A stretch of DNA of 21,535 bases from a virus, in IMG/VR virus record IMGVR_UViG_3300022928_001407, positions 1 through 21,535 of that record; one strand, 5' to 3'. Both the position numbers and the translations under genes were made by a program. The notes beneath the pieces were generated by a model. It was not told the DNA's origin and did no database searches. It saw only the letters and a list, made by a program, of their open reading frames with translations. Positions 3,002 through 18,782 of this stretch are shown here, piece after piece; the stretch's first letter is position 1; every line of letters begins with the position of its first letter.

Positions 3002-4189
3002 TTACCACTGCTCTCCTACGTTAGCTAAGTCAGCAGTATCTTCTTCGATCAACTCAGAAGGGTTCTCAGGGTCTACCTTACCATACAGATCAATGAATGC
3101 TGCCTTAGTGTCAGCGTCAAAACGATTTGTACATAAAGTGATAGCCTTGAGCTTGTCCTTGAACACACCATACGCATTGACAATATGCTCAAGCCTACGG
3201 GTGCTGACAAGCTCATCAATGGCACCCTCAAAGAAGGTCTTACGAATAACCTCAGACCAAGTGACAAGATGAGTAGCAAAGTCCTCATCCTGATAGCCAG
3301 CCTTGCTCATCTTGTTAAGGATGATGCGCTTCTCTACGGCTGCTGTAGGATACTCCTGCTCCACGGTGATTGCAAAACGCTCAAGGAAAGCCTCGTCCAG
3401 CAACTGTGCGCTGATAAACTTGCCATCATCTGAGCCACGACCTTTAGTGTTAGCCGTTGCAACAATTGTAAACCCGGGAGCAGGAGCGACGGTTTCGCCA
3501 GTCTTCTTGTTGAAGTAAGACTTGCCCTCAAGAATTGCTTGAAGACACATTAGCTTATTAGAGCCTCTGTCTACCTCGTCAAGAATAAGAACAGCCCCTC
3601 GCTTCATAGCGGTGAGGACGGGACCTTCTCTATAGACTACGTTACCATCAACCAAAGTATTGCCACCGATTAAATCGTCCTCGTCGGTCTCAATACTAAT
3701 ATTAACACGGATAGCCTCACGCTTGAGTTGGGCGCAAACTTGCTCAACCATCGTGGTCTTACCGTTACCGGATAAACCGGATATGAAAAGAGGATAAAAC
3801 ATATCACCCTTAAGGATAGTCTTAAGGTCTTTGTGAAACCCGAAAGCTACATAGGTATCGTCTTTAGCAGGTACCAAGCCCTCAATCTCCATAGCTAATT
3901 TAGCCATTGAAACAACCTTAGACTCAGATGCAGCGACAGGAGCAGGTGTTACAGTAGGTGTAACAGCCTCCATGATAGGCTTTCTTACAGCGGGAACCGC
4001 AGAAGTGCCTGTGAACATTTCAGTCAAGTCATAAACACCTCGCTCAACCTTGAACTTATCCTTGAGCAGAAAGCCTGGGTGATTGATACCTATAGACTTG
4101 GACTCACGGATGATATCCTTACGGGATACATAGTTGTTGCCGTCAGCGTATGAACGGAGAGTGTCAATAAGTGCGTTACGGTCAGTCAT
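3002..4189 (-). CDS. cobS: CobS-like / MoxR-type AAA+ ATPase
   Basis: 395 aa AAA+ ATPase like the CobS proteins of T4-like cyanophages. CobS in cellular genomes is the ATPase subunit of aerobic cobaltochelatase, acting with the VWA protein CobT; the phage role is not settled. Domains: residues 1-60 resemble a small winged-helix/HTH, 61-95 form a Pro/Ala/Thr-rich linker, and 110-350 the ATPase core. Walker A is GLSGNGKT (138-145), Walker B LILDEVD (201-207), sensor-1 ATAN (244-247), with an Arg finger candidate at R271. It lies directly downstream of the CobT-like VWA gene but has its own promoter that closely resembles the promoter of that gene. Coding GC is well above most of the window. Cobaltochelatase activity is doubtful without a CobN; a MoxR-VWA chaperone or remodelling machine is the alternative. 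Confidence 0.85.
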   Translation of the reverse strand: MTDRNALIDTLRSYADGNNYVSRKDIIRESKSIGINHPGFLLKDKFKVERGVYDLTEMFTGTSAVPAVRKPIMEAVTPTVTPAPVAASESKVVSMAKLAMEIEGLVPAKDDTYVAFGFHKDLKTILKGDMFYPLFISGLSGNGKTTMVEQVCAQLKREAIRVNISIETDEDDLIGGNTLVDGNVVYREGPVLTAMKRGAVLILDEVDRGSNKLMCLQAILEGKSYFNKKTGETVAPAPGFTIVATANTKGRGSDDGKFISAQLLDEAFLERFAITVEQEYPTAAVEKRIILNKMSKAGYQDEDFATHLVTWSEVIRKTFFEGAIDELVSTRRLEHIVNAYGVFKDKLKAITLCTNRFDADTKAAFIDLYGKVDPENPSELIEEDTADLANVGEQW

Positions 4190-4252
4190 AATATAAGCTC
4201 CTCACAAGCTATTAATAATAAATTTTAGTGCGTTTTTTCAGTTTATACCGTT

Positions 4253-4281
4253 ATTATAAGTGATATAGAGTCAAATGTCAA
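4253..4281 (-). promoter_or_regulatory. Perfect consensus promoter for cobS
   Basis: TTGACA (4276-4281), 17 bp, TATAAT (4253-4258) on the minus strand, followed by AACGGTA. The -35 is extended to TTGACATTTGAC, as in the promoters at 6594-6622 and 18815-18843. The leader to the ATG is about 60 nt and ends in a GTGAGGA ribosome site. The 130-bp gap between the two genes holds nothing else that I can support. Confidence 0.92.
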
Positions 4282-4319
4282 GCATTTATTCAAATTTTAA
4301 TCCCTGAAATATCAATAAC

Positions 4320-6727: not shown

Positions 6728-7342
6728 TTACTTTTTATTTAGTTTATTTAGCTCTCTTTTTTGTTTCTTGTGTTCGGATTCCATGATTTTGTTTCTAGCA
6801 TTTAGGCGCTTAGTTACTTCAGCCGGATCCATCCAATAATCCTTACCCTCTAGTATACTATCTATTTCATCCTTTGTAAAGAAGCCTTTGTACACTCTAG
6901 ACATTAAATTTTTTGCCCACTTGTCATTGTGGCTAACTTGAGCTAACATTTCATTTCCCTTTCCGATAGCTCCGCCTGAAAAGTTATGGAACATGAAAAT
7001 ACTGTGTTCGGATATTTCACACACATCTGCCATCAAGAACAAAAAGGTAGCTGCTGACATGCAAGCTCCTTCTACTATTGCAACAACAGTAGCTCTCGAT
7101 TCGGACATAGCACTCATTAATTGAACTGCTGTTAGTGCTTGGCCGCCATAGCAATTTATGTGCAAGTAAACTACATCTTGTTCGTTTGATGATCTAAGAA
7201 TTTGCGTCCATTCAGAATATTCTTCTGGATTTCCAATAGCACTGTTCAAATAGAAGTCTAGTATCTGACCCGTGGGACGATTAAATACACCTCTGACTAC
7301 TGGAGTTACATCGTAATCTTTGTCTCTGGATAATTTAGACAT
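6728..7342 (-). CDS. clpP: ClpP-like serine protease
   Basis: 204 aa, the size of cellular ClpP and close to ClpP-like proteins found in T4-like cyanophages. The fold signature is visible: strand YLHINCYGGQALTAVQLMSAM, catalytic Ser96 in GACMSAA (93-98), catalytic His119 in MFHNF, and a candidate third residue Asp167 in GKDYWMD. The C-terminal tail is very Lys-rich (KKQKRELNKLNKK), unlike housekeeping ClpP. In phages it may act as a prohead or regulatory protease, or associate with the host ClpX/ClpA; this is inference. It is the last gene of the gp47-gp46-def operon, 13 bp after its neighbour, with a good AAAGGAG ribosome site, and is followed by a hairpin terminator. Confidence 0.85.
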   Translation of the reverse strand: MSKLSRDKDYDVTPVVRGVFNRPTGQILDFYLNSAIGNPEEYSEWTQILRSSNEQDVVYLHINCYGGQALTAVQLMSAMSESRATVVAIVEGACMSAATFLFLMADVCEISEHSIFMFHNFSGGAIGKGNEMLAQVSHNDKWAKNLMSRVYKGFFTKDEIDSILEGKDYWMDPAEVTKRLNARNKIMESEHKKQKRELNKLNKK

Positions 7343-7355
7343 ACTATATACTCCT

Positions 7356-7724
7356 TTAAATGTTATCGTAATAACGGGTAACTGATTTTATTTTTTCAAT
7401 CTGCTTGTCAATAATAGAATTTCTTCCGGGCCAATGTATATAATCCTTGTCTGGATTTTTTTGTAAGTTATATAGTAAAGGTAGAATAAGATCCTCTACT
7501 TGTTTAAGTTTTGAAACGACATCCTGTTGAACTAACTCTCTGTGTTCGTTAATCATAGAAGAATCATCATTGTTAATAATCAAAGCCTCCAACCTTTCTA
7601 GTTTATCCATTAGAGGTTGAATCTGTGAATTATCTAGTTGAGCCACTACAGGATCAGGTGTAGCAGTTTCACTCTGTGGCATTTCATCTACAGCAGTAAA
7701 TCCAAAATCCCAATCATCTGACAT
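7356..7724 (-). CDS. Conserved T4-like marine phage hypothetical protein, 122 aa
   Basis: Starts MSDDWDFGFTAVDE and ends with a motif around residues 90-122, NPDKDYIHWPGR..IIDKQIEKI, which I recall as typical of unannotated proteins in T4-like cyanophages. No enzymatic domain is visible. The N-terminal 25 residues are acidic and probably disordered; residues about 30-85 predict as amphipathic helix, possibly a coiled coil. The ATG overlaps the end of the deformylase gene by 11 bp. The function is unknown; a structural or scaffold-associated role is only a possibility. Confidence 0.65.
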   Translation of the reverse strand: MSDDWDFGFTAVDEMPQSETATPDPVVAQLDNSQIQPLMDKLERLEALIINNDDSSMINEHRELVQQDVVSKLKQVEDLILPLLYNLQKNPDKDYIHWPGRNSIIDKQIEKIKSVTRYYDNI

Positions 7725-8238
7725 TAGAATTTTTCCTTTTATAATTTTTAACCTTTTTATCCATACTCTTCAATGCTCTTTCAATTTTGAGTTTAGAAGC
7801 TCTCATAGTAAAATTTTGACCTACCATATGATCGTATTCGTGCAAAACTACTCTGGCAGGAATGCCACTAAATTCTTCTACTACCTCTTCATTTTCTTCA
7901 TTGTAATATTTCAAAGCACATGTAACAGGTCGTTTTATCATCAACCATAAACCTGGATATGACAAACAGCCCTCTTTCATTATTGTGGTTTGGTTACTTA
8001 CTCCAATCAATTCTGGATTAAAAAAAGTTTTTCCTGGCATGTCACCTATTTTATTAATGACAAACACTTTCATATCTAAGCCTACTTGATTAGCTGAAAT
8101 ACCAATACCCCCAGTTTTAACCATAGCAACATGCAGTTTTTCACTTATATCTTTAGCATCGTTCTCTTCAAAGTTAAAGTCCGCAGGGGCTTTTTTGAGT
8201 AGTGGATCAGTAAAACTTATTAATTCTAAATCTTCCAT
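7714..8238 (-). CDS. def: Peptide deformylase
   Basis: 174 aa, normal for the family. Removes the N-formyl group from nascent proteins; phage copies are common in marine myoviruses and may keep phage protein maturation fast. All three metal-site motifs are present: GIGISANQVG (44-53, motif 1), EGCLS (89-93, metal ligand Cys91) and HEYDH (133-137, two His ligands and the catalytic Glu). The C-terminal extension typical of bacterial enzymes is short and Lys-rich. The ATG overlaps the gp46 stop (TAATG), so it is translated with the recombination genes. Expected to be active. Confidence 0.93.
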   Translation of the reverse strand: MEDLELISFTDPLLKKAPADFNFEENDAKDISEKLHVAMVKTGGIGISANQVGLDMKVFVINKIGDMPGKTFFNPELIGVSNQTTIMKEGCLSYPGLWLMIKRPVTCALKYYNEENEEVVEEFSGIPARVVLHEYDHMVGQNFTMRASKLKIERALKSMDKKVKNYKRKNSNVR

Positions 8239-9908
8239 TATGACATCACCGAATAGTTGTTTTTCTTTTCAAACCTAATTACATTTCTAAACTTATCAAA
8301 TAACTGATCTGATTTATGACTAATGACAAAAACATTAGTCTCTTCACCAATAGTATTTAGTAGTTGCATAACATAATCAGTACCATTTACATCTAGTGAA
8401 CTATCAAACACTTCATCTAAAAGAAGAAGGTTCGTACTTGCACTATTCTTCATCTTAGCAATTGTTCTCCAAGTGAACACAAGTGCCAAATCAATCCTTT
8501 GTTTTTCTCCCTCACTAAAAGAGGCGTAACTAAATTTATCTCTGTGTCTAGATTTAATTTCTTCTTTGAATGTTTCGTCAAGATCAAATTGAACAAAGAA
8601 GTCCATTGACTTCAAATATTTGTTTACTAACTTATTTATCAAAGGTAAGTATTGACGAATAATTTTAGTTTTAATACCAGAGTCTTTTAAAAGAGACTCT
8701 GCTATATTATGGTATTCTTGGTCTTCTTTTAATTTAGTTTTATCTTCAGTCTTTGAAATCAAAACTTTAGCTATTTCTTTTAATTTATCTGTTTCGTTTT
8801 CTATGTCCCCAACTTTATTTTCAGTTTCAGTTTTTTCAAGAACTAACCTTTGAAGGTGAGTTTGTGTAGACATAATAGTATTATTCGTATCTACTATTTT
8901 CTGTTGCAAGGAAATAAATTCATCATAGGTTTTATCTAAACTATCCCACTCACTTTGCAACTTGGTACTTGCGTCTTCTAGTTCAGTTATTTTATTTTCT
9001 TTTTCTTCTTTTATTTCTTCTTTAAATTCATGAGGAATCCCTTGCTTACAGGTAGGACAATCATCATGATCAGCATAAAATAATAATTCTTTTTTCTGTT
9101 CCTTTATTTTTCTTGTAAAATCCAGTTTAAAGGATTCTAACTTTTTGCGCTTGCTTTCTATGTCCCCATATTTGTCTTTGACTTCATTATCGAATTTAAC
9201 CTGTGAAAGCAAAGTATTAATAGTACTTTCGGTGGAATTTATTTCATCAATTATTTTTTCTATTTTTTCCTGCTTGTCTGTCTCTAAAGTTTCTATGTAC
9301 TTTTTCTGTATATTTGCTTTTTCTTTAGTTATGGTTAGTTCAGTTTCTATCTCAGATAACTTGCCCTTTAAGTCAGTCATCCTAGTCTTCAGTACTTCTT
9401 TCATTGTAGTAAAGATGCGAATGTCTAAAATATCCTCAATAATCTCACGGCGAATATTAGGAGTCAACTGCATAAAAGGAGTGAATGAAGCACTACCAAG
9501 AATAACAATCTGAGTAAATGATTTGTAGTTTAGTTTTAGAATGCTTTCTTCTAAATATTTTTGATAATCTCGTATACTTGCATTCTGATCTATTAACTCA
9601 CCTGAAATTTCAATATCAAAAATACTCGGCTGACTTCCTCTCCGAACCAAATAAGACTTAGATCCTATGGTAAACTCAACCTCAACAACCATTTTTTTAC
9701 GATTGATAGTGTTTATCAATTGCGGCTTAGATATATTTCTAAAGGGCTTGTTGAAAAGTGCGAAAGTAATAGCATCTAACAGAGTAGACTTACCTGCGCC
9801 ATTCTCTCCTAGTATGAGAGTACTGCTACTTCTGTTTAGTTGTATTTCGGTGAAAGCATTTCCTGTAGATAGGAAGTTTTTATAACGTATAGTAGAAAAA
9901 TTTATCAT
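8238..9908 (-). CDS. 46: Recombination endonuclease subunit gp46 (Rad50/SbcC-like)
   Basis: 556 aa, essentially the T4 gp46 size. ATPase subunit of the gp46/gp47 complex that resects DNA ends for recombination-dependent replication and host DNA degradation. Walker A GENGAGKS (34-41), a long coiled-coil region (about 170-400) interrupted by a zinc hook CPTC (284-287), ABC signature FSEGEKQR (464-471), Walker B LLLLDEVFD (494-502) and an H-loop His at 531. It overlaps gp47 by 4 bp (ATGA) and is followed by the deformylase gene with TAATG coupling. The gene is among the most AT-rich in the window. Confidence 0.96.
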   Translation of the reverse strand: MINFSTIRYKNFLSTGNAFTEIQLNRSSSTLILGENGAGKSTLLDAITFALFNKPFRNISKPQLINTINRKKMVVEVEFTIGSKSYLVRRGSQPSIFDIEISGELIDQNASIRDYQKYLEESILKLNYKSFTQIVILGSASFTPFMQLTPNIRREIIEDILDIRIFTTMKEVLKTRMTDLKGKLSEIETELTITKEKANIQKKYIETLETDKQEKIEKIIDEINSTESTINTLLSQVKFDNEVKDKYGDIESKRKKLESFKLDFTRKIKEQKKELLFYADHDDCPTCKQGIPHEFKEEIKEEKENKITELEDASTKLQSEWDSLDKTYDEFISLQQKIVDTNNTIMSTQTHLQRLVLEKTETENKVGDIENETDKLKEIAKVLISKTEDKTKLKEDQEYHNIAESLLKDSGIKTKIIRQYLPLINKLVNKYLKSMDFFVQFDLDETFKEEIKSRHRDKFSYASFSEGEKQRIDLALVFTWRTIAKMKNSASTNLLLLDEVFDSSLDVNGTDYVMQLLNTIGEETNVFVISHKSDQLFDKFRNVIRFEKKNNYSVMS

Positions 9909-10966
9909 GCATGATCCTGAGCTTCAACGTATATTGTTTGAAGTAATGTTTTCAATGTTTCCTTATTAACATTAACTTCAATGCCATCAACATATTCTTT
10001 TAACAATGACATAGTGTCTTCTAAGTCAACGTCTTCACCTATTGCCTCATCTTCAAATTCCGACAAGTCTTCAATTATTTTCAATTCAATTAAATTACAT
10101 TGATACAAATTATCTATAAGGGTATCAAACTTCCCAAAGTCAGTTTTCTTTGTAACAATTACCTTTATACAACAATTTTCATAAAGAGAATAATCAATAG
10201 ATTCAATGTCATCTCTGCCAGATTCGGTTGTATCATCATAATATATTTTGTGAAATATTTCATTTGGATTGTTAATGTATTCAATTTCTTTTTTGTTAGT
10301 GTCATAAAGTGCAAACCCTCTAGGATCATCCCAATCAGACCATGTTATTTGATAAGGGTTTCCCATGTATGTGATATTGCCTTTAGTATGCCTGTGATGG
10401 AAATGACCACTAACAACCATAGGAAGATGACTAAAAATAGAAGGATCCATACCATGAGGATTAGGGGATCCACGATACATCTGATAACCAGAAAACTCAA
10501 AGTGTCCCAAACAGATGTCAGCTTCTGACTTGGAAATAATTTTAAAAGATTCTTCATAATTTTCACTGCATATCCAAGGCACGAACAACACTTTGCTCTC
10601 GCCCATTTTAATTTCAGTAACTTTCTCGTAGAGAGTAATGTTTTTATAATCACTCAATAGTAGGTTAGGAGAATTTACATCGTTTGTATTCTTAAAGTAA
10701 GTATCATGATTACCAGGTATCATGTGTAAATCTATATTAGCTTCCTGTAACTTATCAAAGAAATACTCTTTACAGTTTTTAAGAGTATTATAATTGATAT
10801 ACTTTCTTCTGTCAAAGGTATCCCCAAGATCAAAGACTGTTTTTATTCCTTGCCTTTCAAGTTCAGGGAAAAAAACTTCTTCATAAAATCTTCTGAAATG
10901 AGAATCAAAATGCTTAGAATCGCTTCTTGCACCAAAGTGCAAATCTGTTACCATTGCAAACTTCAA
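9905..10966 (-). CDS. 47: Recombination nuclease subunit gp47 (Mre11/SbcD-like)
   Basis: 353 aa; T4 gp47 is 339. Mn-dependent nuclease partner of gp46. Phosphoesterase motifs in order: D8-x-H10 (TDLHFG), GDTFDRRK (48-55), PGNHD (84-88), GHFEF (154-158) and GHFHH (187-191). The start is the TTG at 10964-10966: it aligns the N-terminus with T4 gp47 and has a GAGG ribosome site 7 bases upstream, embedded in the last codons of queD. The alternative ATG at 10952-10954 would cut off the first beta strand. Inside the gene lies a perfect promoter match (10787-10815). Confidence 0.95.
   Translation of the reverse strand: MKFAMVTDLHFGARSDSKHFDSHFRRFYEEVFFPELERQGIKTVFDLGDTFDRRKYINYNTLKNCKEYFFDKLQEANIDLHMIPGNHDTYFKNTNDVNSPNLLLSDYKNITLYEKVTEIKMGESKVLFVPWICSENYEESFKIISKSEADICLGHFEFSGYQMYRGSPNPHGMDPSIFSHLPMVVSGHFHHRHTKGNITYMGNPYQITWSDWDDPRGFALYDTNKKEIEYINNPNEIFHKIYYDDTTESGRDDIESIDYSLYENCCIKVIVTKKTDFGKFDTLIDNLYQCNLIELKIIEDLSEFEDEAIGEDVDLEDTMSLLKEYVDGIEVNVNKETLKTLLQTIYVEAQDHA
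10787..10815 (-). promoter_or_regulatory. Intragenic consensus promoter in gp47
   Basis: TTGACA (10810-10815), 17 bp, TATAAT (10787-10792) on the minus strand, inside the gp47 codons for FDRRKYINYN. It would drive gp46, def, the 122-aa gene and clpP. The match is perfect, but the codons encode a conserved nuclease motif, so coincidence cannot be excluded. Confidence 0.6.
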
Positions 10967-10968
10967 TT

Positions 10969-11412
10969 TTAAACCTCGTAAATTGCTGAGTTAGCGCCAT
11001 GCTCTGCTACTTCTACTTTAACACAACAACACCTTCCGTCAGTCATGGTAACAACAAGTTCGTCTGCAAAATTGAATGCATGTTCAGCAAACTTTTCTGC
11101 ACCCACTCCGTCCATTATAACTATCTCAGCCAAACCTTTATGTTGTAGATCATAGAAGTCAGCTAGATAGGGGTCCATTTTGTCTAATACAAGTTTGTGA
11201 TCAAAATTTTCTTCTAGCCAATTTTTCAATTCTTTAAGACCACCAAAATCTACAACCCAATTCTTGTTATCTAGTTCCTCACATGCAAAGGTAAAAGTAA
11301 ATGCTAGACTATACCCATGTAGTAGACTACAATGAGAATGATCTGCATTTGGCTGCCTGAATACTGCTGATAGACCAACATTGTGACCATACTTTTTTGT
11401 GCTATAGTGCAT
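10969..11412 (-). CDS. queD: 6-carboxytetrahydropterin synthase-like protein QueD (phage type)
   Basis: 147 aa T-fold enzyme of the 6-pyruvoyl-tetrahydropterin synthase family. Converts dihydroneopterin triphosphate (made by FolE) to 6-carboxytetrahydropterin, the QueE substrate. Visible: catalytic Cys28 in HSHCSLLHGY (25-34), DFGGLK (55-60), an FDH motif (70-72) and Glu106 in the AEKFAEH segment. Oddity: the usual zinc motif H-G-H reads H-G-Y (H32, Y34), so one zinc His must come from elsewhere, for example His10, His25 or His27. I have seen the HGY form in other phage QueD proteins, so this is probably a subfamily trait. It is coupled to galE by TAATG and followed 2 bp later by gp47. Confidence 0.85.
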   Translation of the reverse strand: MHYSTKKYGHNVGLSAVFRQPNADHSHCSLLHGYSLAFTFTFACEELDNKNWVVDFGGLKELKNWLEENFDHKLVLDKMDPYLADFYDLQHKGLAEIVIMDGVGAEKFAEHAFNFADELVVTMTDGRCCCVKVEVAEHGANSAIYEV

Positions 11413-12347
11413 TACCTATTCTCCCACTTGTATGCGTGTTCTACAATATCTTCAATTGAATATATAGGATTCCAGTTCAAATAATTTATTGCAAGATCGA
11501 TGTTTGCAAATGTTTGCGCCGGATCTCCAAGTCTTCTTCCTTCATAATTTATTTGTATTTTCTTTCCTGTATAATCCTCAAAAGCGTTTATAACATCTAT
11601 AACACTTTCACCTTTGCCTGTTCCTATGTTAAATACCCTCTCTGGTCCTTCATATTCTAATGCTTTTATGTGTGCATCTGCAATATCATAAACATGAGTA
11701 TAATCTCTTATACAAGTCCCGTCAGGTGTGTCGTAGTCTCTACCAAAAATAGTAAAAGGGAGATCCTGCCCAAAACATCTAGCAAGAATGGGAACTAAAT
11801 GCGAGTAAACATCTTGACAGTAACCGTGCCTGTTCAATGGATCAGCACCCGCAGCATTGAAGTATCTAAGAGCCAGTGTTTTAATACCGTAAGCTCTATC
11901 ATAATCTTTCAATACTTCTTCAAACATGTCTTTTGTTCTACCATAAGGCGACATGGGATTTTTTCTATTATTTTCTGTTGTAGGAAATTTTGGGTCATCA
12001 CCATATACGCTACTAGAACTACTGAAGATAAATTTTTCAACACCTGCCTGAATACACTTATCAAGAAACCTGATGCTGCTAACAACATTATTATTGTAGA
12101 ACACTGATGGTTCCTCAACGCTGCGACCCACTTCATGGTCAGCAGCAAAGTGTATCACTGATTTAATGTTGTGCCTTTTCATAATATCTAAAACAACATT
12201 ATCATCAAATGAGCAAGTATAAGAGTTCTTAGTTGTGTCTGCAACCCAATCTACAACAACAGGTTCATAACCTGCAGCTTTCAACTGCATGACTGTTTGT
12301 GTTCCTATGTAACCATTACCACCTGTAACCAATACACTATCTTTCAT
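11412..12347 (-). CDS. galE: UDP-glucose 4-epimerase
   Basis: 311 aa extended short-chain dehydrogenase. Interconverts UDP-glucose and UDP-galactose (or N-acetyl forms). NAD-binding TGGNGYIG (8-15), a Ser cluster at 109-113, the active-site Tyr135-x-x-x-Lys139 pair (PYGRTK), a RYFNAAGAD segment and IRDYTHVYDIADAH, all as in GalE. It is slightly shorter than E. coli GalE (338). It overlaps the preceding glycosyltransferase gene by 11 bp, which suggests that the epimerase supplies the sugar donor for that transferase. A promoter lies inside the end of the transferase gene. The target of the sugar is unknown: phage DNA base, virion protein or host surface. Confidence 0.93.
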   Translation of the reverse strand: MKDSVLVTGGNGYIGTQTVMQLKAAGYEPVVVDWVADTTKNSYTCSFDDNVVLDIMKRHNIKSVIHFAADHEVGRSVEEPSVFYNNNVVSSIRFLDKCIQAGVEKFIFSSSSSVYGDDPKFPTTENNRKNPMSPYGRTKDMFEEVLKDYDRAYGIKTLALRYFNAAGADPLNRHGYCQDVYSHLVPILARCFGQDLPFTIFGRDYDTPDGTCIRDYTHVYDIADAHIKALEYEGPERVFNIGTGKGESVIDVINAFEDYTGKKIQINYEGRRLGDPAQTFANIDLAINYLNWNPIYSIEDIVEHAYKWENR

Positions 12348-13539
12348 ATTTTGCCTTTGTTACGGATTTACGATAATCAGTGTGACCTCTCAAGTAGGAA
12401 GAGTTCTCACCGTCTAACATACATTCAATGGTTCTGCCTATTGTTCCATTTTGATAATCACTTATCTTACCTATATTATACTTATCTAAACTGTCTGTGT
12501 CAATAGAGACAATCATTCTTTGCAATTTTTCTATTGCATCGTCTATTGACCAAGGAACATACATGTGATTAGCGTTGTTGGCAAAAACCTCAGGAAAACT
12601 TCTATATGCTGGGAACAGTGTGAAGCAGCCCATAGTGTCTGCCTCACTGACCGTATTACTGACCCAATCTTGTAGCGCACAATTGAAAAGTACCTGACTA
12701 TCAGCTAACAAACTGTAGTATTCATTCTTCTTTAGACCTGTATATATTTTAAAGTTTGCTGTGTTTCCTGACTGAAGTTTCATTGCTCTATCTACATAGA
12801 CCTGATTGTTGCTCTTTAGTTCAGGATGACCACAGAAAATAGCAAACTCCATTTCAGTATCTATTTTGTAGTATTCTTCAGCCAAGTCCATGTAAAAATG
12901 TGGCAGTTTCTCATCATCCCAGCGAGAAGAAAAACATACACGTTTTGTTCTGTCTTTGAGTTCTTTTGTAGGTGTTACTCGTTCTAATACTTCTGACTTA
13001 CCGTAAGGCAACCCTGTCACATAAATTGGTTTCTTGAATCCTGCAATACGAAGATGCGCTACAAATTCTTCTGATGCTACCATGATACCATCAACAAACT
13101 GATCGACCATTTCTTCATACTTACGCATCCAATCAAACATACCTTCACGAATTAGAAAATCGTCTGGGTCAACAGTTTGTGCCAAGAAGCGTAGAAACAC
13201 TTTGGGTCTATATCCTTCTGGACTTTGATCCATAATGTATGGCAAACATTCAAGTCCTGGAGTAAACATATCTTCATAGAATATAACATCATCACTTGTC
13301 ACTTCACCATTCTTCATCTTCTGAATAAGATTCATGTGCTGCGACAAACTATAGTAGGTTCTGCCGTGTGCATCAAGCACACTTCCTGTTACAATAGCCT
13401 TAGAGTTATCAAGTTCTTCTCCTTGAATAACTTCATAGTCAATGCCTTGTAACTTGAATACTCGTTCATTCCATTCTTGTAACTGTAGAGTGTAGCGGCT
13501 CTCATAAGATTCTAAACCAATGTAAAATAGTTTACGCAT
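12337..13539 (-). CDS. GT-B type glycosyltransferase-like protein
   Basis: 400 aa. No signal peptide or membrane segment. Residues about 1-185 show a degenerate N-terminal Rossmann-like half; 195-340 match a GT-B C-terminal half: VCFSSRWDDEKLP (201-213), a strand EFAIFCGHPE, IYTGLKKNEYYSLLADSQVLFNCA (265-288) and the donor-site region NTVSEADTMGC (295-305), where the Glu corresponds to the conserved GT4-like acid. The closest named family is uncertain. It is tightly coupled to galE and to the T-fold-like gene (8 bp overlap). It could glycosylate phage DNA, a structural protein or a host glycan; no evidence here separates these. Confidence 0.7.
   Translation of the reverse strand: MRKLFYIGLESYESRYTLQLQEWNERVFKLQGIDYEVIQGEELDNSKAIVTGSVLDAHGRTYYSLSQHMNLIQKMKNGEVTSDDVIFYEDMFTPGLECLPYIMDQSPEGYRPKVFLRFLAQTVDPDDFLIREGMFDWMRKYEEMVDQFVDGIMVASEEFVAHLRIAGFKKPIYVTGLPYGKSEVLERVTPTKELKDRTKRVCFSSRWDDEKLPHFYMDLAEEYYKIDTEMEFAIFCGHPELKSNNQVYVDRAMKLQSGNTANFKIYTGLKKNEYYSLLADSQVLFNCALQDWVSNTVSEADTMGCFTLFPAYRSFPEVFANNANHMYVPWSIDDAIEKLQRMIVSIDTDSLDKYNIGKISDYQNGTIGRTIECMLDGENSSYLRGHTDYRKSVTKAKYER
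12475..12503 (-). promoter_or_regulatory. Intragenic consensus promoter for galE-queD-47
   Basis: TTGACA (12498-12503), 17 bp, TATAAT (12475-12480) on the minus strand, in the last third of the glycosyltransferase gene, about 130 bp before the galE ATG. Perfect match; placement before galE makes function plausible. Confidence 0.7.
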
Positions 13540-13879
13540 TATCTAATATTGCTCCATTCTCATCATCTTCATAAACTTCAACTTGAACGAATCTACCTGG
13601 ATAGTTTACTTCAATATAGTCTAGTAAATCTTCTGCTAACATTTCGCATGACTTATTATCAGCTTGCATAATGTCAGCCCTAAAAAGAATTTCAAGATCA
13701 CGCTTGAACAAAATAAATTCTACATCCCTGTCATTGTGAAAAACCTCAAGCGTCACATAAAAATGAAATATGTGACGATGAGGATGTTTAAGAAATTCTA
13801 CACCTTTAGGTGCGTTAGGATACCTGTGTACACCTTCTTTCTGAAAAGATACTTTTATTTTCCTAGACGTTACTGGCAT
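13532..13879 (-). CDS. T-fold-like phage protein near queD (possible deazaguanine pathway member)
   Basis: 115 aa with start at the ATG at 13877-13879, which has a GGAG ribosome site 7 bases upstream; a longer reading frame would run deep into the preceding gene. Residues 11-50 carry FQKEGVHRYPNAP...FLKHPHRHIFHF, then DRDVEFILFKRDL and a C-terminal SCEMLAEDLL and VEVYEDDENGA. The H-x-x-H-R-H strand and the final E-x-x-E-N-G pattern recall the T-fold of QueD, but it is shorter and lacks the Cys-x3-His-Gly box. I recall similar unannotated proteins in phages with queuosine-type genes. It may process a pterin or deazaguanine intermediate, such as CDG; this is inference. Overlaps both neighbours. 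Confidence 0.55.
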   Translation of the reverse strand: MPVTSRKIKVSFQKEGVHRYPNAPKGVEFLKHPHRHIFHFYVTLEVFHNDRDVEFILFKRDLEILFRADIMQADNKSCEMLAEDLLDYIEVNYPGRFVQVEVYEDDENGAILDNA

Positions 13880-14411
13880 CAAACCACTCCGGTATTTGTC
13901 GTTTAGTCCACTTAGCAAAGCCTCGTTTGTAAATACGATAATAGTTACGATATGCTTCAATCACATTAGGCAACTTTGCATCGTTAGGCATTGCTTGTGG
14001 AATTTCTGTTAGATCACCTTCAGGTATGTTTGAAGGAGTATTACATATTATATGTTCAAGTTTACTCTGTGTCAAGTGGATTCTACCATATCGGTGAGTG
14101 TACTCTTGACACAGAGCAGACCATAACCTGAACATATATTCATAATTTGCTTTAGTTGCCCTCGTCCAAATGCCTGAAGGGTGATTTATGTGTGAGGCCT
14201 TGTAGACATTGTTTTCCAGAACGGTATCAGTCAAACGCCATCTTTTTATATTACGATTGTTGGCAGTTTTACCTTGATACATTGTGCCGTCAAGTACACG
14301 GTGTGCAGTAGACATAAGTTGAGCGTACTCAATTATCATCTTCACGACATGGCGATCACAGTGCATTTGTGCCGAAACAACAGGGTCTTGGTCTAAAGCA
14401 AATATATTCAT
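13863..14411 (-). CDS. Conserved T4-like phage protein of unknown function
   Basis: 182 aa from the ATG at 14409-14411, preceded by GAGGA at a spacing of about 7; a longer in-frame version has no such site. The N-terminal motif MNIFALDQDPVVSAQMHCDRHVVKMIIEYAQLMSTAHRVLDG is well known to me from many tailed phages, with a following HINHPSGIW and HRYGR.H. The D-P, H-C-D-x-H and A-H-R residues look like a metal or nucleotide site, but the biochemical role is not known to me. It lies in the deazaguanine block next to dpdA and dsbA-like genes and has its own promoter; DNA metabolism is a reasonable guess. The stop codon overlaps the next gene by 17 bp. Confidence 0.7.
   Translation of the reverse strand: MNIFALDQDPVVSAQMHCDRHVVKMIIEYAQLMSTAHRVLDGTMYQGKTANNRNIKRWRLTDTVLENNVYKASHINHPSGIWTRATKANYEYMFRLWSALCQEYTHRYGRIHLTQSKLEHIICNTPSNIPEGDLTEIPQAMPNDAKLPNVIEAYRNYYRIYKRGFAKWTKRQIPEWFDASNV
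14047..14075 (-). promoter_or_regulatory. Intragenic consensus promoter for the T-fold gene and glycosyltransferase
   Basis: TTGACA (14070-14075), 17 bp, TATAAT (14047-14052) on the minus strand, inside the conserved 182-aa gene, about 170 bp before the T-fold-like start. Perfect match in coding DNA. Confidence 0.65.
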
Positions 14412-14437
14412 ATCAAATTCCTCAAGTTTACCATTAC

Positions 14438-14466
14438 ATGATAACACTAAAATTTGATTGTGTCAA
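14438..14466 (-). promoter_or_regulatory. Sigma-70-type promoter for the 182-aa conserved gene
   Basis: TTGACA (14461-14466), 17 bp, TATCAT (14438-14443) on the minus strand. The -35 box includes the TGA stop of the dsbA-like gene, the same arrangement as at the gp45 promoter. Leader of about 20 nt. Confidence 0.82.
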
Positions 14467-14693
14467 GACATAATATTTTTAAATGTTGTTTCAAATTCTT
14501 CGTTGATGGTAGTTTCTTCGGCAAAGTTCTGCTTGTGATATACCCTAGCCATTTTTCGGATTACTCTTTTATCCAAGAGTTCTTCTTCATGAACCTTATT
14601 CACAATCTCTTTAACCAAGTCTCTTTCAGCATCCATTCGGGTCATGGAGTTTGAAATTTCTACAATTGCATTTCTAACTTTTTTCGGATCCAT
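14463..14693 (-). CDS. dsbA: DsbA-like dsDNA-binding protein
   Basis: 76 aa. Resembles T4 DsbA (89 aa, a small double-stranded DNA-binding protein reported to help late transcription) in layout: a charged N-terminal helix pair, then VDK/LDKR..RKMARVYHKQN (42-56 here), and a C-terminal EEFETTFKN acidic helix. The YHKQN segment is the strongest match, from memory. It is not related to the periplasmic disulfide enzyme of the same name. The gene follows the dpdA-like gene after 15 bp. An alternative is an unrelated small helical phage protein. Confidence 0.6.
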   Translation of the reverse strand: MDPKKVRNAIVEISNSMTRMDAERDLVKEIVNKVHEEELLDKRVIRKMARVYHKQNFAEETTINEEFETTFKNIMS

Positions 14694-14708
14694 AATATAA
14701 TTCCTTCT

Positions 14709-16073
14709 TTAACAAAATAAATCTTCTAATGTTTCTTTCTCTGATGGTTTAACATGTGAGATGCTTTTTGATTTCTTTTTTTCTTTAAAGATACTACCCC
14801 AACGGCCCATCCAAGCATTGAAAGAATCTATATCTTTAACATCAAAAAGTTGTTGTCCTGATATTCCAGGGTATCTTTTATCAGCTAGTTCCCATAGCTT
14901 ATTTTTATCGTTTATAAGTTCTTCAAGTTCATCCATGAAGTTTTTTATAGACACACTGCACAGTGCAGTTCTTGCAGTATACCAAGTGCTTAGTTCTCCG
15001 TATTTTTCTTTATAAGGAACTGAAGGGACATTCAAACATTCGTGGAATCTTTCCTTTGTCATACCAAGATCGTAAACACGGTTTATGTCATTCATTAGAA
15101 TATCGTATTGTATATCTGGATGTGACTCTCTTGGTTCTCCTATCACTACGGAGTCTGCACTTCTTGCCCTAGTAAAATTCATTGTTCTTCCAGAGCCAGG
15201 AATATAATCTCCGTTGTTAATCGACCCTCTAATATAATACATACCGGTTTCTACGCCTCTAGAATGTGTAGTAGAATCGTATGAGATATGTACATCACCG
15301 TATAATCCAGTGTGTAAAAATATGAGATAAGGTATCATCCTATTAATAGAACCTACACCTAAAACATGTAGATGAAGTTTTCCATTCTCATCTCTAACAG
15401 GAACCTGACTAGCAAAGAAGGCTTTCTGAATATCTTCTAACGGACCAGTACCTAATGCAGCCCCTCCCATCGCCACTCCGCCTATACGAAAATGATCTTC
15501 TTTCGGTACAGTTTTTAATATAGTATCTATCCATTCAAGATATGTTTCTAAATCGCCGCCTTGACAAATCATAAATGGTTTACAGGAACTGTTGTTCTCT
15601 TTAAATACTTCAATTTGACGGGCAACATTATCAGCAGTTTGTTGTGCATACTTTTGACGATTCTCTCTGTCAAAATAACGATTGCTAGTGTCATTCCTGT
15701 CTGATGCTCCTGTAGTGATTACAGGTATCTCATCAAAACTCATTCCTATGTCAGCCCACTGAGACTGATTCTGATAAACCTCTTCTCTAAGGTCGTTCAT
15801 GTTAGTGCCTTTAGGCATTTTATGAGCGAGTGTAACCATTTGCAACCCGCCTGAGTCTGCATGTAAGTTATGAATAGACGGCTTTAACACGCTCAACTTT
15901 TCACCGTAAGAGCTTTCTGCCCAGGCATTATATAAAATAGAAAAGGTGTGTCCAGATTGATTGCCAAATATGTCAGTAAACATATCATTAACTACGGCAG
16001 CAGCTTCTGGATTGCCTTTTAATCTCGCAAGCTGCATAAATGATGTGCCTGAAGCTACATATTCTAACTTCAC
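14709..16073 (-). CDS. dpdA: DpdA-like DNA guanine transglycosylase (TGT superfamily)
   Basis: 454 aa related to tRNA-guanine transglycosylase and to the phage/bacterial DpdA enzymes that exchange guanine in DNA for a 7-deazaguanine. Visible TGT-like parts: HADSGGLQM (71-79) with a substrate-base Asp73 as in the TGT D-S-G-G motif, QGGD (171-174), RIGGVAMGG (196-204), HVLGVGS (236-242), and SYDSTTHSRG (264-273), where Asp266 sits where TGT has its nucleophile. A clear C-terminal zinc site of tRNA-type TGT is not visible, which favours DpdA. The start is a GTG overlapping the dexA stop by 4 bp (GTGA), with GAGATG upstream. With FolE, QueD and QueE nearby, a DNA substrate is the best reading. 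The DpdA subfamily cannot be decided by eye. Confidence 0.82.
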   Translation of the reverse strand: MKLEYVASGTSFMQLARLKGNPEAAAVVNDMFTDIFGNQSGHTFSILYNAWAESSYGEKLSVLKPSIHNLHADSGGLQMVTLAHKMPKGTNMNDLREEVYQNQSQWADIGMSFDEIPVITTGASDRNDTSNRYFDRENRQKYAQQTADNVARQIEVFKENNSSCKPFMICQGGDLETYLEWIDTILKTVPKEDHFRIGGVAMGGAALGTGPLEDIQKAFFASQVPVRDENGKLHLHVLGVGSINRMIPYLIFLHTGLYGDVHISYDSTTHSRGVETGMYYIRGSINNGDYIPGSGRTMNFTRARSADSVVIGEPRESHPDIQYDILMNDINRVYDLGMTKERFHECLNVPSVPYKEKYGELSTWYTARTALCSVSIKNFMDELEELINDKNKLWELADKRYPGISGQQLFDVKDIDSFNAWMGRWGSIFKEKKKSKSISHVKPSEKETLEDLFC

Positions 16074-16612
16074 GATTTTAACATCTCAATCAATAGTTTT
16101 GCTTCTGCCATGGCATCGTCAAGTGCATTATGATTGACACCTGTCTTTTCGATCTTTCTTCCAAGTATACTGGTCAATGTACGCATGTCATAAATGTCCC
16201 AAAACTTCCAGGGCAGATGTTTGCCATAATCTTTATCCTTATCCCAACCTATGGCATAGTAGGCAGATTCTAGAATTGTAATATCAAAACTAGAACCGTT
16301 GCCCCATATAGGATTGCCTATTTTATAAAAGTCAGCAAACTTCTCTAGTGCATAGTCAAGAGGTTGGGGGTCTTTCTGCCAAGATTCTTGTGCTTCTTTA
16401 GATTGATTCTTCCACCATTCAATTGTATTTCGGTCTATATGTAATCCATGATCACGGCAGTCACTAGCATCTACATTAATGAAAAATTCATCAAGTATTC
16501 CTTCTTGCAAGTTAAATGCAACTGCGCCTATAGAAACGATGCAGGAGTTTGGTCGTGTGCTGAGTGTTTCTAGGTCTACTACAACCTGTCTGTCTGTTGG
16601 CTTTATTCTCAT
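16070..16612 (-). CDS. dexA: DexA-like 3'-5' exonuclease (DEDDh)
   Basis: 180 aa exonuclease of the DnaQ/RNase T superfamily; T4 DexA (exonuclease A) is the nearest named phage relative. Exo I VVDLETLS with Asp13 and Glu15, Exo II WGNGSSFDITIL (conserved Asp), Exo III NHNALDDAMAEAKLL (catalytic His and Asp). Start at ATG 16610-16612 forming TAATG with the folE stop; an in-frame TTG two codons upstream is less likely. It lies between folE and dpdA with overlaps on both sides. It may trim DNA or RNA ends; a link to deazaguanine insertion is unproven. Confidence 0.88.
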   Translation of the reverse strand: MRIKPTDRQVVVDLETLSTRPNSCIVSIGAVAFNLQEGILDEFFINVDASDCRDHGLHIDRNTIEWWKNQSKEAQESWQKDPQPLDYALEKFADFYKIGNPIWGNGSSFDITILESAYYAIGWDKDKDYGKHLPWKFWDIYDMRTLTSILGRKIEKTGVNHNALDDAMAEAKLLIEMLKS

Positions 16613-17292
16613 TAACAAGCGTGATCCTGTTGTAGTTTAATATTATCAAAGAATTCTTTCTTTGTAGAAGGGTCAGTAAAGAAACTTCCTCGAAGCACAG
16701 TTGTTTGTGTCAAAGAACTATGGGCTTTGATACCACGGTTTTCGCAGCAACCATGAGTTGCCTGAATATAAACACCGACATGCTCTGCTCCGGTGTGCTT
16801 TTGTATTTCATCTGCAATGATAACATTCAATTCTTCTTGAAGAGTTCCACGCATGGCACACCACTGAGCGATTCTTGTATACTTACTAAGTCCTAGTAGT
16901 TTATCGCCTGCAATGATACCAATATATGCTGTTCCTGTAACAGGCTGATGATGGTGTGAACAAACGCTTTTCAATTCACTTCTAACTACCAACATACCTT
17001 CATAGCCATTGTCTATGTAGTTAGGAAAAGAGTTAGGATTGGGCATTTCATCATAACGACCAGACATAATTTCATTGATATACATTTTTGCCATACGGCG
17101 CCCAGTGTCTTGACTGTTAGGATCATTATCTCTATCAATCACTAAACTGTCAATGACTGTCTCAAATTTTTGAGCCACTTCGTCAATTAGCTGTTCTTTT
17201 TCATCGTCCATGATAAACTCAGAAATATTATCCGCAGCGTAATACCGTCTATTTGCGTTGACAATTCTCTCTTTAATTATATCACTTATCAT
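16612..17292 (-). CDS. folE: GTP cyclohydrolase I
   Basis: 226 aa, the family's usual length. Converts GTP to dihydroneopterin triphosphate, the entry step of folate and queuosine/7-deazaguanine synthesis. Zinc ligands are visible as Cys111 and His114 in SVCSHHHQPVTG and Cys182 in HGCCENRGIKAHSSLTQT. YIGIIAGDKLLGLSK (123-137) is the characteristic central strand-loop. The N-terminal 50 residues are helical, as in bacterial FolE. It overlaps the 63-aa gene by 11 bp and dexA by one base. In this cluster it most likely feeds QueD and QueE rather than folate. Confidence 0.95.
   Translation of the reverse strand: MISDIIKERIVNANRRYYAADNISEFIMDDEKEQLIDEVAQKFETVIDSLVIDRDNDPNSQDTGRRMAKMYINEIMSGRYDEMPNPNSFPNYIDNGYEGMLVVRSELKSVCSHHHQPVTGTAYIGIIAGDKLLGLSKYTRIAQWCAMRGTLQEELNVIIADEIQKHTGAEHVGVYIQATHGCCENRGIKAHSSLTQTTVLRGSFFTDPSTKKEFFDNIKLQQDHAC
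17125..17153 (-). promoter_or_regulatory. Possible weaker promoter inside folE
   Basis: TTGACA (17148-17153), 17 bp, GATAAT (17125-17130) on the minus strand. The -10 has one mismatch at its first, important base. It could add transcription to dexA and dpdA. Weakest of the set. Confidence 0.35.
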
Positions 17293-17473
17293 TTTCTATG
17301 ATCCCCGTATCCCAGTTTCTAGCTGCTGATTCAGCATAATGTATACTTTTATTTGGAAACTCTCTAGTTTCTATTCTTTCTTCATCTTCATAAAAATCTA
17401 CTACATACATCGTGTCGGGTCCAGATGATCCAGACGAAATATGCGGTACTTGCCTTATAGTTGAAGTTCTCAT
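17282..17473 (-). CDS. Small hypothetical protein, 63 aa
   Basis: Start at the ATG at 17471-17473, overlapping the phosphoribosyltransferase stop by 4 bp (ATGA); a longer frame would lie inside that gene. The sequence begins MRTSTIRQVPHISSGSSG, then a strand MYVVDFYED, then REFPNKSIHYAESAARNW, which looks like a helix. No family is recognised. Size and shape (extended N-terminus, beta-alpha) suggest a small binding protein. It lies between two purine-related enzymes and is the first gene after a consensus promoter at 17509-17537. Confidence 0.6.
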   Translation of the reverse strand: MRTSTIRQVPHISSGSSGPDTMYVVDFYEDEERIETREFPNKSIHYAESAARNWDTGIIENDK

Positions 17474-17892
17474 TCTTTCTCCCAGGGGAAGCAAACCCAT
17501 TCACTAACATTATACAAAGTTTGTCCTACTATGTCAAGCAATATATCTTCTCTTTTATTAAATAAAACTGCCGTTGATGCTTCAGGGGCTAAAGTCATGA
17601 CATCTAAAATAGTTTTACCGCTATCTACCATATCATCAACTATAAGATATTTAGGATCATTATAATGAAAGACTTTGGACACATCTTTTCGTTCTCCGTC
17701 TCTAGTTTCCCAAACGAAAGAAGAAAAAGGTACTTCAAGTAAATGTGAAATTATAACCCCTGGTATCAATCCGCCTCTTGATATTCCAACTACTTCTTCG
17801 ATGTTTTTTTCTCTTGCAACATGTGCTATTTCTAAACAGAAATAATCTATATCCTGCCATCTAATAAAAAGTTTGCCGTCTTCGTATTTCAT
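17470..17892 (-). CDS. Purine-type phosphoribosyltransferase
   Basis: 140 aa type I phosphoribosyltransferase. The PRPP-binding loop YLIVDDMVDSGKT lies at 82-94 and the preceding VVGISRGGLIPGVIISHLL (34-52) is the PPi loop strand, both typical of xanthine-guanine or hypoxanthine PRTases. Would join a purine base to PRPP. It starts 2 bp after the queE stop, so it belongs to the queE unit. The substrate could be guanine released by DpdA base exchange, which would recycle it to GMP and so to GTP for FolE; this is inference. A strong promoter for the downstream genes lies inside its 3' end. Confidence 0.82.
   Translation of the reverse strand: MKYEDGKLFIRWQDIDYFCLEIAHVAREKNIEEVVGISRGGLIPGVIISHLLEVPFSSFVWETRDGERKDVSKVFHYNDPKYLIVDDMVDSGKTILDVMTLAPEASTAVLFNKREDILLDIVGQTLYNVSEWVCFPWEKE
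17509..17537 (-). promoter_or_regulatory. Consensus promoter for the folE-dexA-dpdA unit
   Basis: TTGACA (17532-17537), 17 bp, TATAAT (17509-17514) on the minus strand, within the last codons of the phosphoribosyltransferase gene and about 35 bp before the 63-aa gene ATG. Perfect match. Confidence 0.82.
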
Positions 17893-17894
17893 AA

Positions 17895-18782
17895 TTAAGT
17901 TCCAATCTGATTGCCATAGACATACGCATGATTTCTAGTAGCTACTTTGTATCCTCTTTCCATCGCTTCATTGGCTATAAAAGCAATACTTTCTTGCGCT
18001 TCTTTTGTAGCACCTACAGGCATGATCCAAATGTCAGGGCAGTCTATTTCAGCTTGATCACAATACAATTTTACTTCTTTCACATGATTTTCTATTTCTA
18101 GCCAAGACTGTTCTGAACCATTGCATACAAATTTTAAACAACCAGTACTACAAACATTTTCTAGATAGCTCATAAAAGTTTCTACATGTACTGCGTCTTT
18201 CTCGCCTGAAGTATGTAGAATTTTAGGGCTTATAGCCCAGTGCCATCTTACACCCAAATCTACCAATATGTTATTGATGAAGGTTTCAAGTTCTTTTTTT
18301 AAAGGCTTAGTTCCATTAGTTTCTACAGTTATTATTTTAGGGAAGTTACCTCGGTCAATCAATTCTTGTAAAATTGCTTGCATTCTAAGTTGTTGCAACA
18401 TAGGTTCGCCGCCTGTAAAAGCAAGCATATTTTCTTGACCTGTTTCTGGATGTGTGAATTCACCGTGGGGCAATAAATTTACAAACTTATCAGCGGCGCC
18501 TTCTGGCGTAGTGTCTTGTGCCAAATGTTTGAAACGCTTAGACCATGAATATGAAGAATCACACCCGTATTCCCATACAGGCAACTCTTCAACTGCAATT
18601 ACGCTATCAGGGTCAAAGTCTTTGTATGGGAGTTCGTAAGATGATTCGTCAGCCGGATTCTGTTGACCGAAACCATTGCATTCTAAATTACACCCGAAAA
18701 AGCGGAGCCATACTGTTGGAGTTCCGGCAAGTTCAGCTTCACCTTGGAAACTGTAAAACATTTCGGAATAACGAATTTTCAT
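17895..18782 (-). CDS. queE: 7-carboxy-7-deazaguanine synthase QueE (phage type)
   Basis: 295 aa radical-SAM enzyme; converts 6-carboxytetrahydropterin to CDG. N-terminal EMFYSFQGE (7-15) and TPTVWLRFFGCNLEC match QueE. TGGEPM (123-128) is the SAM-binding GGE box, and ITVETNGTKPL is also QueE-like. The [4Fe-4S] cysteines are atypical: Cys31 and Cys35 follow the C-x3-C spacing, but the third, normally two residues later in C-D-T, is at Cys74 in YGCDSSYSW, after an insertion of about 36 residues. The conserved C-D-S-S-Y-S-W context shows that it is the true third ligand. The protein is longer than E. coli QueE (223). Transcribed from its own promoter over the gp55 3' end. Confidence 0.9.
   Translation of the reverse strand: MKIRYSEMFYSFQGEAELAGTPTVWLRFFGCNLECNGFGQQNPADESSYELPYKDFDPDSVIAVEELPVWEYGCDSSYSWSKRFKHLAQDTTPEGAADKFVNLLPHGEFTHPETGQENMLAFTGGEPMLQQLRMQAILQELIDRGNFPKIITVETNGTKPLKKELETFINNILVDLGVRWHWAISPKILHTSGEKDAVHVETFMSYLENVCSTGCLKFVCNGSEQSWLEIENHVKEVKLYCDQAEIDCPDIWIMPVGATKEAQESIAFIANEAMERGYKVATRNHAYVYGNQIGT

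Follow-up and report, generated by a model that had tools for sequence, protein, structure and literature searches.

We moderately favour the reading that the window, the whole stretch of 21,535 nucleotides analysed here, encodes a 7-deazaguanine DNA hypermodification module that works without QueC and places a sugar on the inserted base. Its enzyme families, the lack of QueC and the tight linkage between a glycosyltransferase (GT), a QueD-like protein and DpdA are established by sequence comparison, structure prediction and co-occurrence. The preliminary description of this DNA had proposed a deazaguanine modification cluster with folE, queD, queE and dpdA. All four genes lie on the minus strand at the positions that it gave, with family matches and conserved active-site residues, and the analysis supports a DNA-modification cluster without QueC and with a DNA-type transglycosylase (Table 1). 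The cluster reaches 7-carboxy-7-deazaguanine (CDG), as had been claimed, but the QueD-like protein, the GT and GalE, all of them tied to DpdA by comparison, had been missed. Because a second QueD-fold protein and a GT/GalE pair are linked to DpdA, CDG is probably not the final base and dCDG is doubtful as the end product of this virus; simple insertion of CDG with no further step was rejected, since it does not account for the QueD-like protein and the GT.

Table 1. Genes of the modification cluster in the window and the basis of their assignment
Product	Position	Strand	Basis
QueE (CDG synthase, radical SAM), insertion between second and third cluster cysteines	17895..18782	-	phrog_2076; NCBIfam; Cys
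Xanthine/guanine phosphoribosyltransferase-like (PRT)	17470..17892	-	Pribosyltran 2.7e-9; profile vs E. coli XGPRT
FolE, GTP cyclohydrolase I	16612..17292	-	GTP_cyclohydroI (PF01227) 4.7e-38; active-site residues
3'-5' exonuclease (Rv2179c-like/DexA-like), interleaved	16070..16618	-	PF16473 5.3e-38; phrog_255 exonuclease 1.8e-48
DpdA2, DNA-guanine transglycosylase (predicted)	14709..16073	-	nt-1 DpdA2 profile; Asp; fold
phrog_624 'DNA binding protein', interleaved	13863..14447	-	phrog_624 4.2e-53
QueD-fold protein, proposed CDG-tailoring enzyme (QueD-like protein)	13532..13879	-	phrog_17812 2e-26; Foldseek; Zn His
GT-B glycosyltransferase (GT4-like)	12337..13539	-	relatives' Pfam matches; acidic motif; co-occurrence
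GalE, UDP-glucose 4-epimerase	11412..12347	-	TIGR01179 equivalog 320 bits (cut-off 262); motifs GGNGYIG, YGRTK
QueD homologue (proposed CPH4 synthase), HGY variant	10969..11412	-	PF01242 9.5e-17; phrog_2389 9.6e-39

Organization of the locus and CDG-pathway genes

The cluster lies within the replication/recombination block of a marine T4-like virus, and it is not a chance assembly, since the order queE-PRT-folE-exo-dpdA-...-queD is kept across dozens of contigs. Among 43 loci spanning both flanking T4 genes, queE, folE, dpdA, the QueD-like protein and the GT are found in all 43, queD in 42 and the PRT gene in 38; the last is also present in 36/36 loci found via DpdA. The interleaved exonuclease is probably outside the pathway, and the phrog_624 gene varies in location among related loci, standing before dpdA, after it, or being missing.

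The Zn and active-site residues of FolE (C111, H113/H114, H180 and C182) are invariant in 30/30 relatives. QueE matches phrog_2076 ('QueE-like', 1.3e-49) and the NCBIfam QueE models (1e-11); its cluster cysteines C31 and C35 are conserved in 33/33 relatives and C74 in 32/33, and an inserted segment of about 38 residues displaces this third cysteine with respect to the CxxxCxxC spacing. The family profile of the PRT matches E. coli XGPRT (1a98, 1.2e-18) and 1vdm (2e-23).

Glycosyltransferase, GalE and their association with DpdA

Glycos_transf_1 (PF00534) is matched by 8 of 11 members of the GT family, the window GT itself having no significant Pfam match. D291-x7-E299 and E317 are invariant in the family, the E-x7-E donor-site motif having D as its first residue.

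Viral loci retrieved with the GT alone carry both the QueD-like protein and a DpdA in 56 of 56 cases (DpdA2 in 13 of them and, in the other 43, a second lineage marked by the motifs ADSGGFQ and ISFDxASPF), and loci found via DpdA carry the GT in 36/36 and the QueD-like protein in 35/36, in locus samples that include near-duplicates. A clear GT homologue is present in 16 of 50,697 phage records, each of which also has the QueD-like protein and a DpdA-like gene. The GT module is found in cyanophages and in Xanthomonas, Pseudomonas, Acidovorax and Sinorhizobium phages, with two very divergent DpdA lineages, and the cultured phages BUCT-ZZ01, ACP17, X1, PA5oct, Paride and Phosso have it. Neither the QueD-like protein nor the GT was found in the DpdA2 phages that have QueC (nt-1, KVP40, Moby); QueC is absent in the GT phages ACP17, BUCT-ZZ01 and PA5oct, and X1 gave a sub-threshold match only.

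This linkage bears on a plainer explanation, according to which the modification stops on the CDG branch, as unglycosylated dCDG or 2'-deoxy-7-deazaguanosine, while GT and GalE act elsewhere, on the host envelope, another base or the capsid. In fact, the QueD-like protein occurs without a nearby GT in phiST, RHph_I1_18, D479 and Bakedbeans, so its product needs no sugar and could be a stable end product. We nevertheless consider this explanation unlikely, because the GT is seen only together with DpdA and the QueD-like protein, lies within the operon and accompanies two divergent DpdA lineages in varied phages, a linkage that an envelope or capsid role does not predict.

The alpha- and beta-glucosyltransferases of T4 likewise add a sugar to a modified base after replication, but their acceptor is hydroxymethylcytosine, made by a relative of thymidylate synthase. 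The thymidylate-synthase/hydroxymethylase family (PF00303) has no member in the complete genomes of ACP17, BUCT-ZZ01 and X1; a hydroxymethyl-pyrimidine is therefore an unlikely sugar acceptor, and hydroxymethylcytosine and hydroxymethyluracil were rejected for these three phages. A TET/JBP search gave no match anywhere, controls included, and proves nothing.

The presence of galE tracks the form of the GT: among complete loci, it accompanies the window form in 21/21 and the other form in 0/56. On the gp47 tree at least six switches of GT form and galE are seen; of the 6 independent pairs, 5.5 show galE following the GT form and none the opposite (sign test, p 0.03-0.06). Two loci, L047 and L091, have GTs of the window form and no galE in their examined DNA. 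Since GalE accompanies this GT form, the sugar added by the window GT is probably galactose.

Two QueD-fold proteins

The QueD homologue keeps C28, D71, H72 and E137 (the Cys-Asp-His triad and the pterin-binding Glu) in 30/30 relatives, and two of the three Zn His of E. coli QueD, the first and the third, are replaced by F18 and Y34. These His are retained in E. coli QueD and in that of phage 9g, which is functional (PMC6884629). The HGY type is present in phages with the QueD-like protein (the window virus, BUCT-ZZ01, ACP17, phiST, RHph_I1_18) and not in 9g. As the maker of CPH4 among the two QueD-fold proteins we propose, although not with certainty, the QueD homologue.

The open reading frame of the QueD-like protein extends to 13960; its residues 1-27 are modelled with low confidence, overlap the upstream gene and are missing in most relatives. 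The model resembles E. coli QueD (4ntk, Foldseek 1.2e-5, prob 1.00), and H45/H61/H63, the Zn His, are invariant together with E131/D132/E134. The hhalign comparison of the family with the single E. coli QueD gave 1.2% probability, though the Zn-His region was aligned, so the case for a QueD fold rests on fold and motif; the family profile against PDB sequences returned nothing useful, only chance bacterioferritin matches. A QueD assignment was not adopted: despite the QueD/T-fold and the three Zn His, the catalytic Cys is absent at the position of QueD Cys27, where every member has F or L. At least 594 relatives were confirmed; they lie in viral contigs, and those contigs that were examined are mostly T4-like. 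We propose that the protein acts on CDG instead of QueC, most likely as a decarboxylase. In 2023 Cui and colleagues reportedly described the phage nucleosides dDG and dCDG and gave the name DpdL to a CDG decarboxylase; were it the same protein, it would presumably supply the role proposed here.

The losses in the two proteins are complementary, the HGY-type QueD keeping Cys, Asp and His and lacking two Zn His, the QueD-like protein keeping the Zn His and lacking the Cys, and the HGY type was seen in phages with the QueD-like protein and not in 9g. The latter might thus be an accessory subunit of CPH4 synthesis that gives back the lost Zn site, with DpdA2 inserting CDG or host-made preQ0. In the established structures of PTPS/QueD enzymes, however, Zn and Cys belong to the same chain, so that mixing subunits would not rebuild the active site, and a composite site was rejected. 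Moreover, DpdA2 phages that use preQ0 normally bring their own QueC, as nt-1 does. We judge an accessory subunit improbable, and prefer an enzyme that tailors CDG.

The transglycosylase is DpdA2

The product of 14709-16073 had been described as DpdA-like, with its subfamily open and Asp73 and Asp266 to be verified. It proved to be a DpdA2 of the nt-1 type (nt-1 YP_008125322: profile E 3e-78, tblastn 4e-39; phrog_10773 1.3e-80) and did not group with tRNA TGT. All 29 relatives keep Asp73 (ADSGGLQ), D114 and Asp266 (ISYDSTTH), and the AlphaFold model (pLDDT 90) is TGT-like (Foldseek, TGT 7ovo 1.6e-7 and bacterial DpdA 7ui4 3.9e-7). The DpdA2 family profile found nothing useful among PDB sequences, and fold comparison was needed. 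Scans with the DpdA of Moby, nt-1 and ACP17 added little.

The Pfam search gave no match at 1e-3, TGT (PF01702) included; this family was also not matched in the DpdA relatives of ACP17, X1, BUCT-ZZ01 and nt-1, and it was matched in all 14 control genomes. The C-terminal zinc site CxCxxC...H was not found, Cys being present only at 164, 170, 346, 372 and 454. Since the protein belongs to DpdA2, keeps both Asp and lacks the Zn cysteine motif, a tRNA-TGT identity was rejected, and the protein very likely inserts a 7-deazaguanine into viral DNA, as predicted.

FolE and QueD are common to the queuosine and folate/pterin pathways, and they would also suit a cluster for tRNA queuosine or folate/pterin supply. 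That purpose is highly improbable for a cluster that lies in a replication/recombination block and whose transglycosylase is a DpdA2 without the TGT hallmarks, of the same subfamily as that of nt-1, which has deazaguanines in its DNA (PMC6884629).

Comparison with known systems

The DNA of Vibrio phage nt-1 contains dPreQ0/dADG/dG+ (Hutinet et al. 2019, PMC6884629). This T4-like virus shares with the window the DpdA2 subfamily (profile E 3e-78) and FolE, but it has QueC and its cluster has no second QueD-like protein, GT, GalE or XGPRT. In Synechococcus phage BUCT-ZZ01 (ON615601, 65.7-72.6 kb), QueE, XGPRT, HGY-type QueD, FolE, DpdA2, the QueD-like protein and a GT 54% identical to that of the window are found in one run. 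It differs in being a cultured freshwater cyanophage, with mostly hypothetical annotations; folE and dpdA are separated by another GT-like gene, and the examined stretch has no annotated GalE. The DpdL/dDG phages of Cui and colleagues are not known to carry a sugar on the base. Jumbo phages of the PA5oct/Paride type also have a QueD-like protein, a GT and QueE adjoining a TGT-like DpdA, but this belongs to a separate and larger lineage (~540 aa). The deazaguanine system of PA5oct was predicted earlier (PMC7824862), in an article in which the consulted passages do not mention the GT.

Proposed pathway and significance

In the pathway that we propose, FolE, the QueD homologue and QueE would convert GTP to CDG, and the Zn-binding QueD-like protein, replacing QueC and most likely as a decarboxylase, would convert CDG to 7-deazaguanine. 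DpdA2 would put this base in the place of guanine in finished DNA, the released guanine being possibly salvaged by the PRT. The GT-B enzyme would then glycosylate the inserted base, in the window virus with galactose from UDP-galactose supplied by GalE, and the bulky base may keep host nucleases off the DNA; protection from restriction is suggested by analogy with other phages. All the reactions after CDG, like the attachment point and identity of the sugar, are inferred. Against the proposal, a sugar has no evident point of attachment on 7-deazaguanine: with CDG decarboxylated, C-glycosylation at C7 would be needed, and otherwise a glycosyl ester of CDG.

We put at about even the chances of a wider picture, in which phage DNA carries glycosylated 7-deazaguanine, possibly as a C7 C-glycoside after removal of the carboxyl by the QueD-like protein, the kind of sugar is swapped between viruses as a GT-GalE cassette, and one GT family works with both of the very divergent DpdA lineages. 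We know of no description of a sugar-decorated 7-deazaguanine as a DNA modification, and literature searches, with incomplete coverage of the key deazaguanine literature, found no glycosylated deazaguanine in DNA. The deazaguanine bases known in phages bear small C7 groups (cyano, amido, formamidino, aminomethyl and the like). If the proposal is true, a sugar on deazaguanine would combine base replacement and glycosylation, the two great strategies by which phages camouflage their DNA, in a single base, through a module that is common in viral contigs, and would give roles to two families of proteins whose current annotation is hypothetical.

Genomic context of the cluster

The window (21,535 bases, from IMG/VR) carries a T4-like replication and recombination block on the minus strand, in the order UvsW, gp55, the cluster, gp47, gp46, peptide deformylase, ClpP, CobS-like AAA ATPase, VWA peptidase and sliding clamp. 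The interval from gp55 to gp47 holds queE, a phosphoribosyltransferase gene, folE, an exonuclease gene, dpdA, a phrog_624 gene, the QueD-fold gene, a glycosyltransferase (GT) gene, galE and the queD homologue. Profile searches established that folE, queD, queE and dpdA, named in the preliminary description, are real genes, and its reading of deazaguanine DNA modification is right in outline; it is incomplete in leaving out the QueD-like protein, the GT and GalE. Its 'marine myovirus' fits, the closest relatives of gp46 being those of cyanophages and Methylophilales phages (about 47% identity).

Features of the window and of compared loci
Sequence	Position	Feature
Window	3002-6554	CobS-like AAA ATPase gene (phrog_249 'porphyrin biosynthesis') adjoining VWA protein gene labelled 'peptidase' (phrog_459); pair kept downstream of the block in relatives
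Window	6728-8238	Peptide deformylase and ClpP-like protease genes, kept near gp46 in related contigs
Window	10969-11412	queD homologue
Window	12337-13539	Putative GT-B glycosyltransferase
Window	13532-13960	QueD-like protein
Window	17895-18782	QueE; ~38-residue insertion separating Fe-S cluster cysteines two and three (C31-x3-C35 ... C74)
L005	11142-11421	QueD-like gene in two frames, perhaps assembly error or broken copy
L100 (Cellulophaga phage phiST)	14406-16568	QueD-like gene adjoining MazG-like gene and small kinase-like ATPase gene, not GT and phosphoribosyltransferase genes
L101 (BUCT-ZZ01)	8656-9999	Second glycosyltransferase-like gene (PF13692, 3e-5) between folE and dpdA
L106 (Vibrio phage Bakedbeans)	11212-12363	QueD-like domain as C-terminal part of 383-aa protein with an additional N-terminal part
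L102 (PA5oct)	9224-10846 (PA5oct 222985-224607)	~540-aa DpdA
L047	3518-5098	~540-aa DpdA
L079	1113-2690	~540-aa DpdA

Two lineages of DpdA

The window transglycosylase matches no Pfam family, and a profile of 29 relatives finds Vibrio phage nt-1 DpdA2 (YP_008125322, 3e-78), the protein that defined this subfamily (Hutinet et al. 2019, PMC6884629). Its AlphaFold model (pLDDT 90) matches both TGT (7ovo, 1.6e-7) and bacterial DpdA (7ui4, 3.9e-7), and Asp73 (ADSGGLQ), Asp114 (FDEIP) and Asp266 (ISYDSTTH) are invariant. The TGT zinc cysteines are missing from its sequence, and the protein does not fall into the grouping with tRNA-guanine transglycosylases that had been named as counter-evidence.

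A second, TGT-like lineage of about 540 residues (ADSGGFQ, ISFDxASPF), without Pfam match and annotated as hypothetical protein, is related to DpdA2 at 95% profile probability with both catalytic motifs aligned, and its genes adjoin the same GT and QueD-like genes.

The phosphoribosyltransferase is of the xanthine/guanine type (profile match to E. coli XGPRT, 1.2e-18) and a highly constant member of the cluster, present in 38/43 and 36/36 loci. Each exchange by DpdA sets a single guanine free, and salvage of that base would be a natural role for this enzyme.

Two QueD-related proteins and the absence of QueC

The family of the queD homologue, present in 42 of 43 loci, has lost two of three zinc histidines in all 30 relatives, while Cys28, Asp71 and His72 are kept. 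This 'HGY' type, with Phe or Tyr at the two positions (Phe18 and Tyr34 in the window), also occurs in BUCT-ZZ01, ACP17 and phiST; RHph_I1_18 retains the first histidine. The QueD of phage 9g, which is functional (PMC6884629), keeps its zinc histidines and is not of the HGY type.

The QueD-like ORF has no Pfam match. Its model (pLDDT 84.6) matches E. coli QueD (4ntk, 1.2e-5, probability 1.00) and is unreliable below about residue 30, which points to Met28 (13879) as the probable start. In the alignment the three zinc histidines are kept (H45/H61/H63, equivalent to QueD H16/H31/H33), as are acidic residues near QueD Glu110; no residue corresponds to the catalytic Cys27. The protein cannot work as an ordinary CPH4 synthase. 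Of 39 records of the window kind, 38 lack QueC (PF06508) and the remaining one has a match to a 56-position fragment (23.5 bits); the DpdA2 phages with QueC (nt-1, KVP40, Moby) have no QueD-like protein. As a consequence, we place the QueD-like protein at the QueC position, where it would act on 7-carboxy-7-deazaguanine (CDG), and decarboxylation is the reaction that we favour; a CDG decarboxylase, DpdL, was reportedly named by Cui et al. in 2023. It is very likely that a 7-deazaguanine is inserted into DNA, and that this base derives from CDG rather than from preQ0.

Association of the glycosyltransferase with DpdA

The GT shows a GT-B donor-site pattern with D291-x7-E299 and E317 invariant; Glycos_transf_1 matches 8 of 11 relatives, but not the window GT itself. 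A search begun from the GT alone gave 56 viral loci flanked by 2.5 kb or more on both sides; all 56 carry a DpdA, DpdA2 in 13 and the larger lineage in 43, together with the QueD-like gene. Conversely, a DpdA-based search found the GT in 36/36 loci. Among 50,697 phage records, all 16 clear GT homologues lie in phages carrying both partners (PA5oct-like phages, ACP17, X1, BUCT-ZZ01 and Phosso). The pattern recurs in eleven MAG contigs found through the QueD-like gene, eight with DpdA and GT and three with neither; they are probably misbinned viruses. The module-bearing MAG contigs L269-L279 have assignments that include Bacteroidetes, Rickettsiales, Euryarchaeota and Nitrosarchaeum, and are likewise probably viral.

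Two GT forms exist, related at 99.9% profile probability. In loci spanning the QueD-like gene to queD, galE follows the window form in 21/21 cases and the other form in 0/56. The gp47 tree shows six or more switches of GT form; galE changes with the form in 5.5 out of 6 independent pairs and in none does it change the opposite way (sign test, p 0.03-0.06); L091 and L047 have a window-form GT and no galE in the sequence examined. GalE passes its equivalog cut-off. The simplest reading of these sequences is a GT that would use UDP-galactose in the window virus and another donor elsewhere.

A hydroxymethylpyrimidine is probably not the acceptor, because no PF00303 gene occurs in ACP17, BUCT-ZZ01 or X1, all of them complete genomes. 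The gene associations are best explained, on balance, by glycosylation of the inserted base. Decarboxylation of CDG by the QueD-like enzyme would require attachment of the sugar at carbon 7; without that step, a glycosyl ester is one conceivable linkage. Within the limited reach of our literature check, a glycosylated inserted base would, if true, be new as far as is known.
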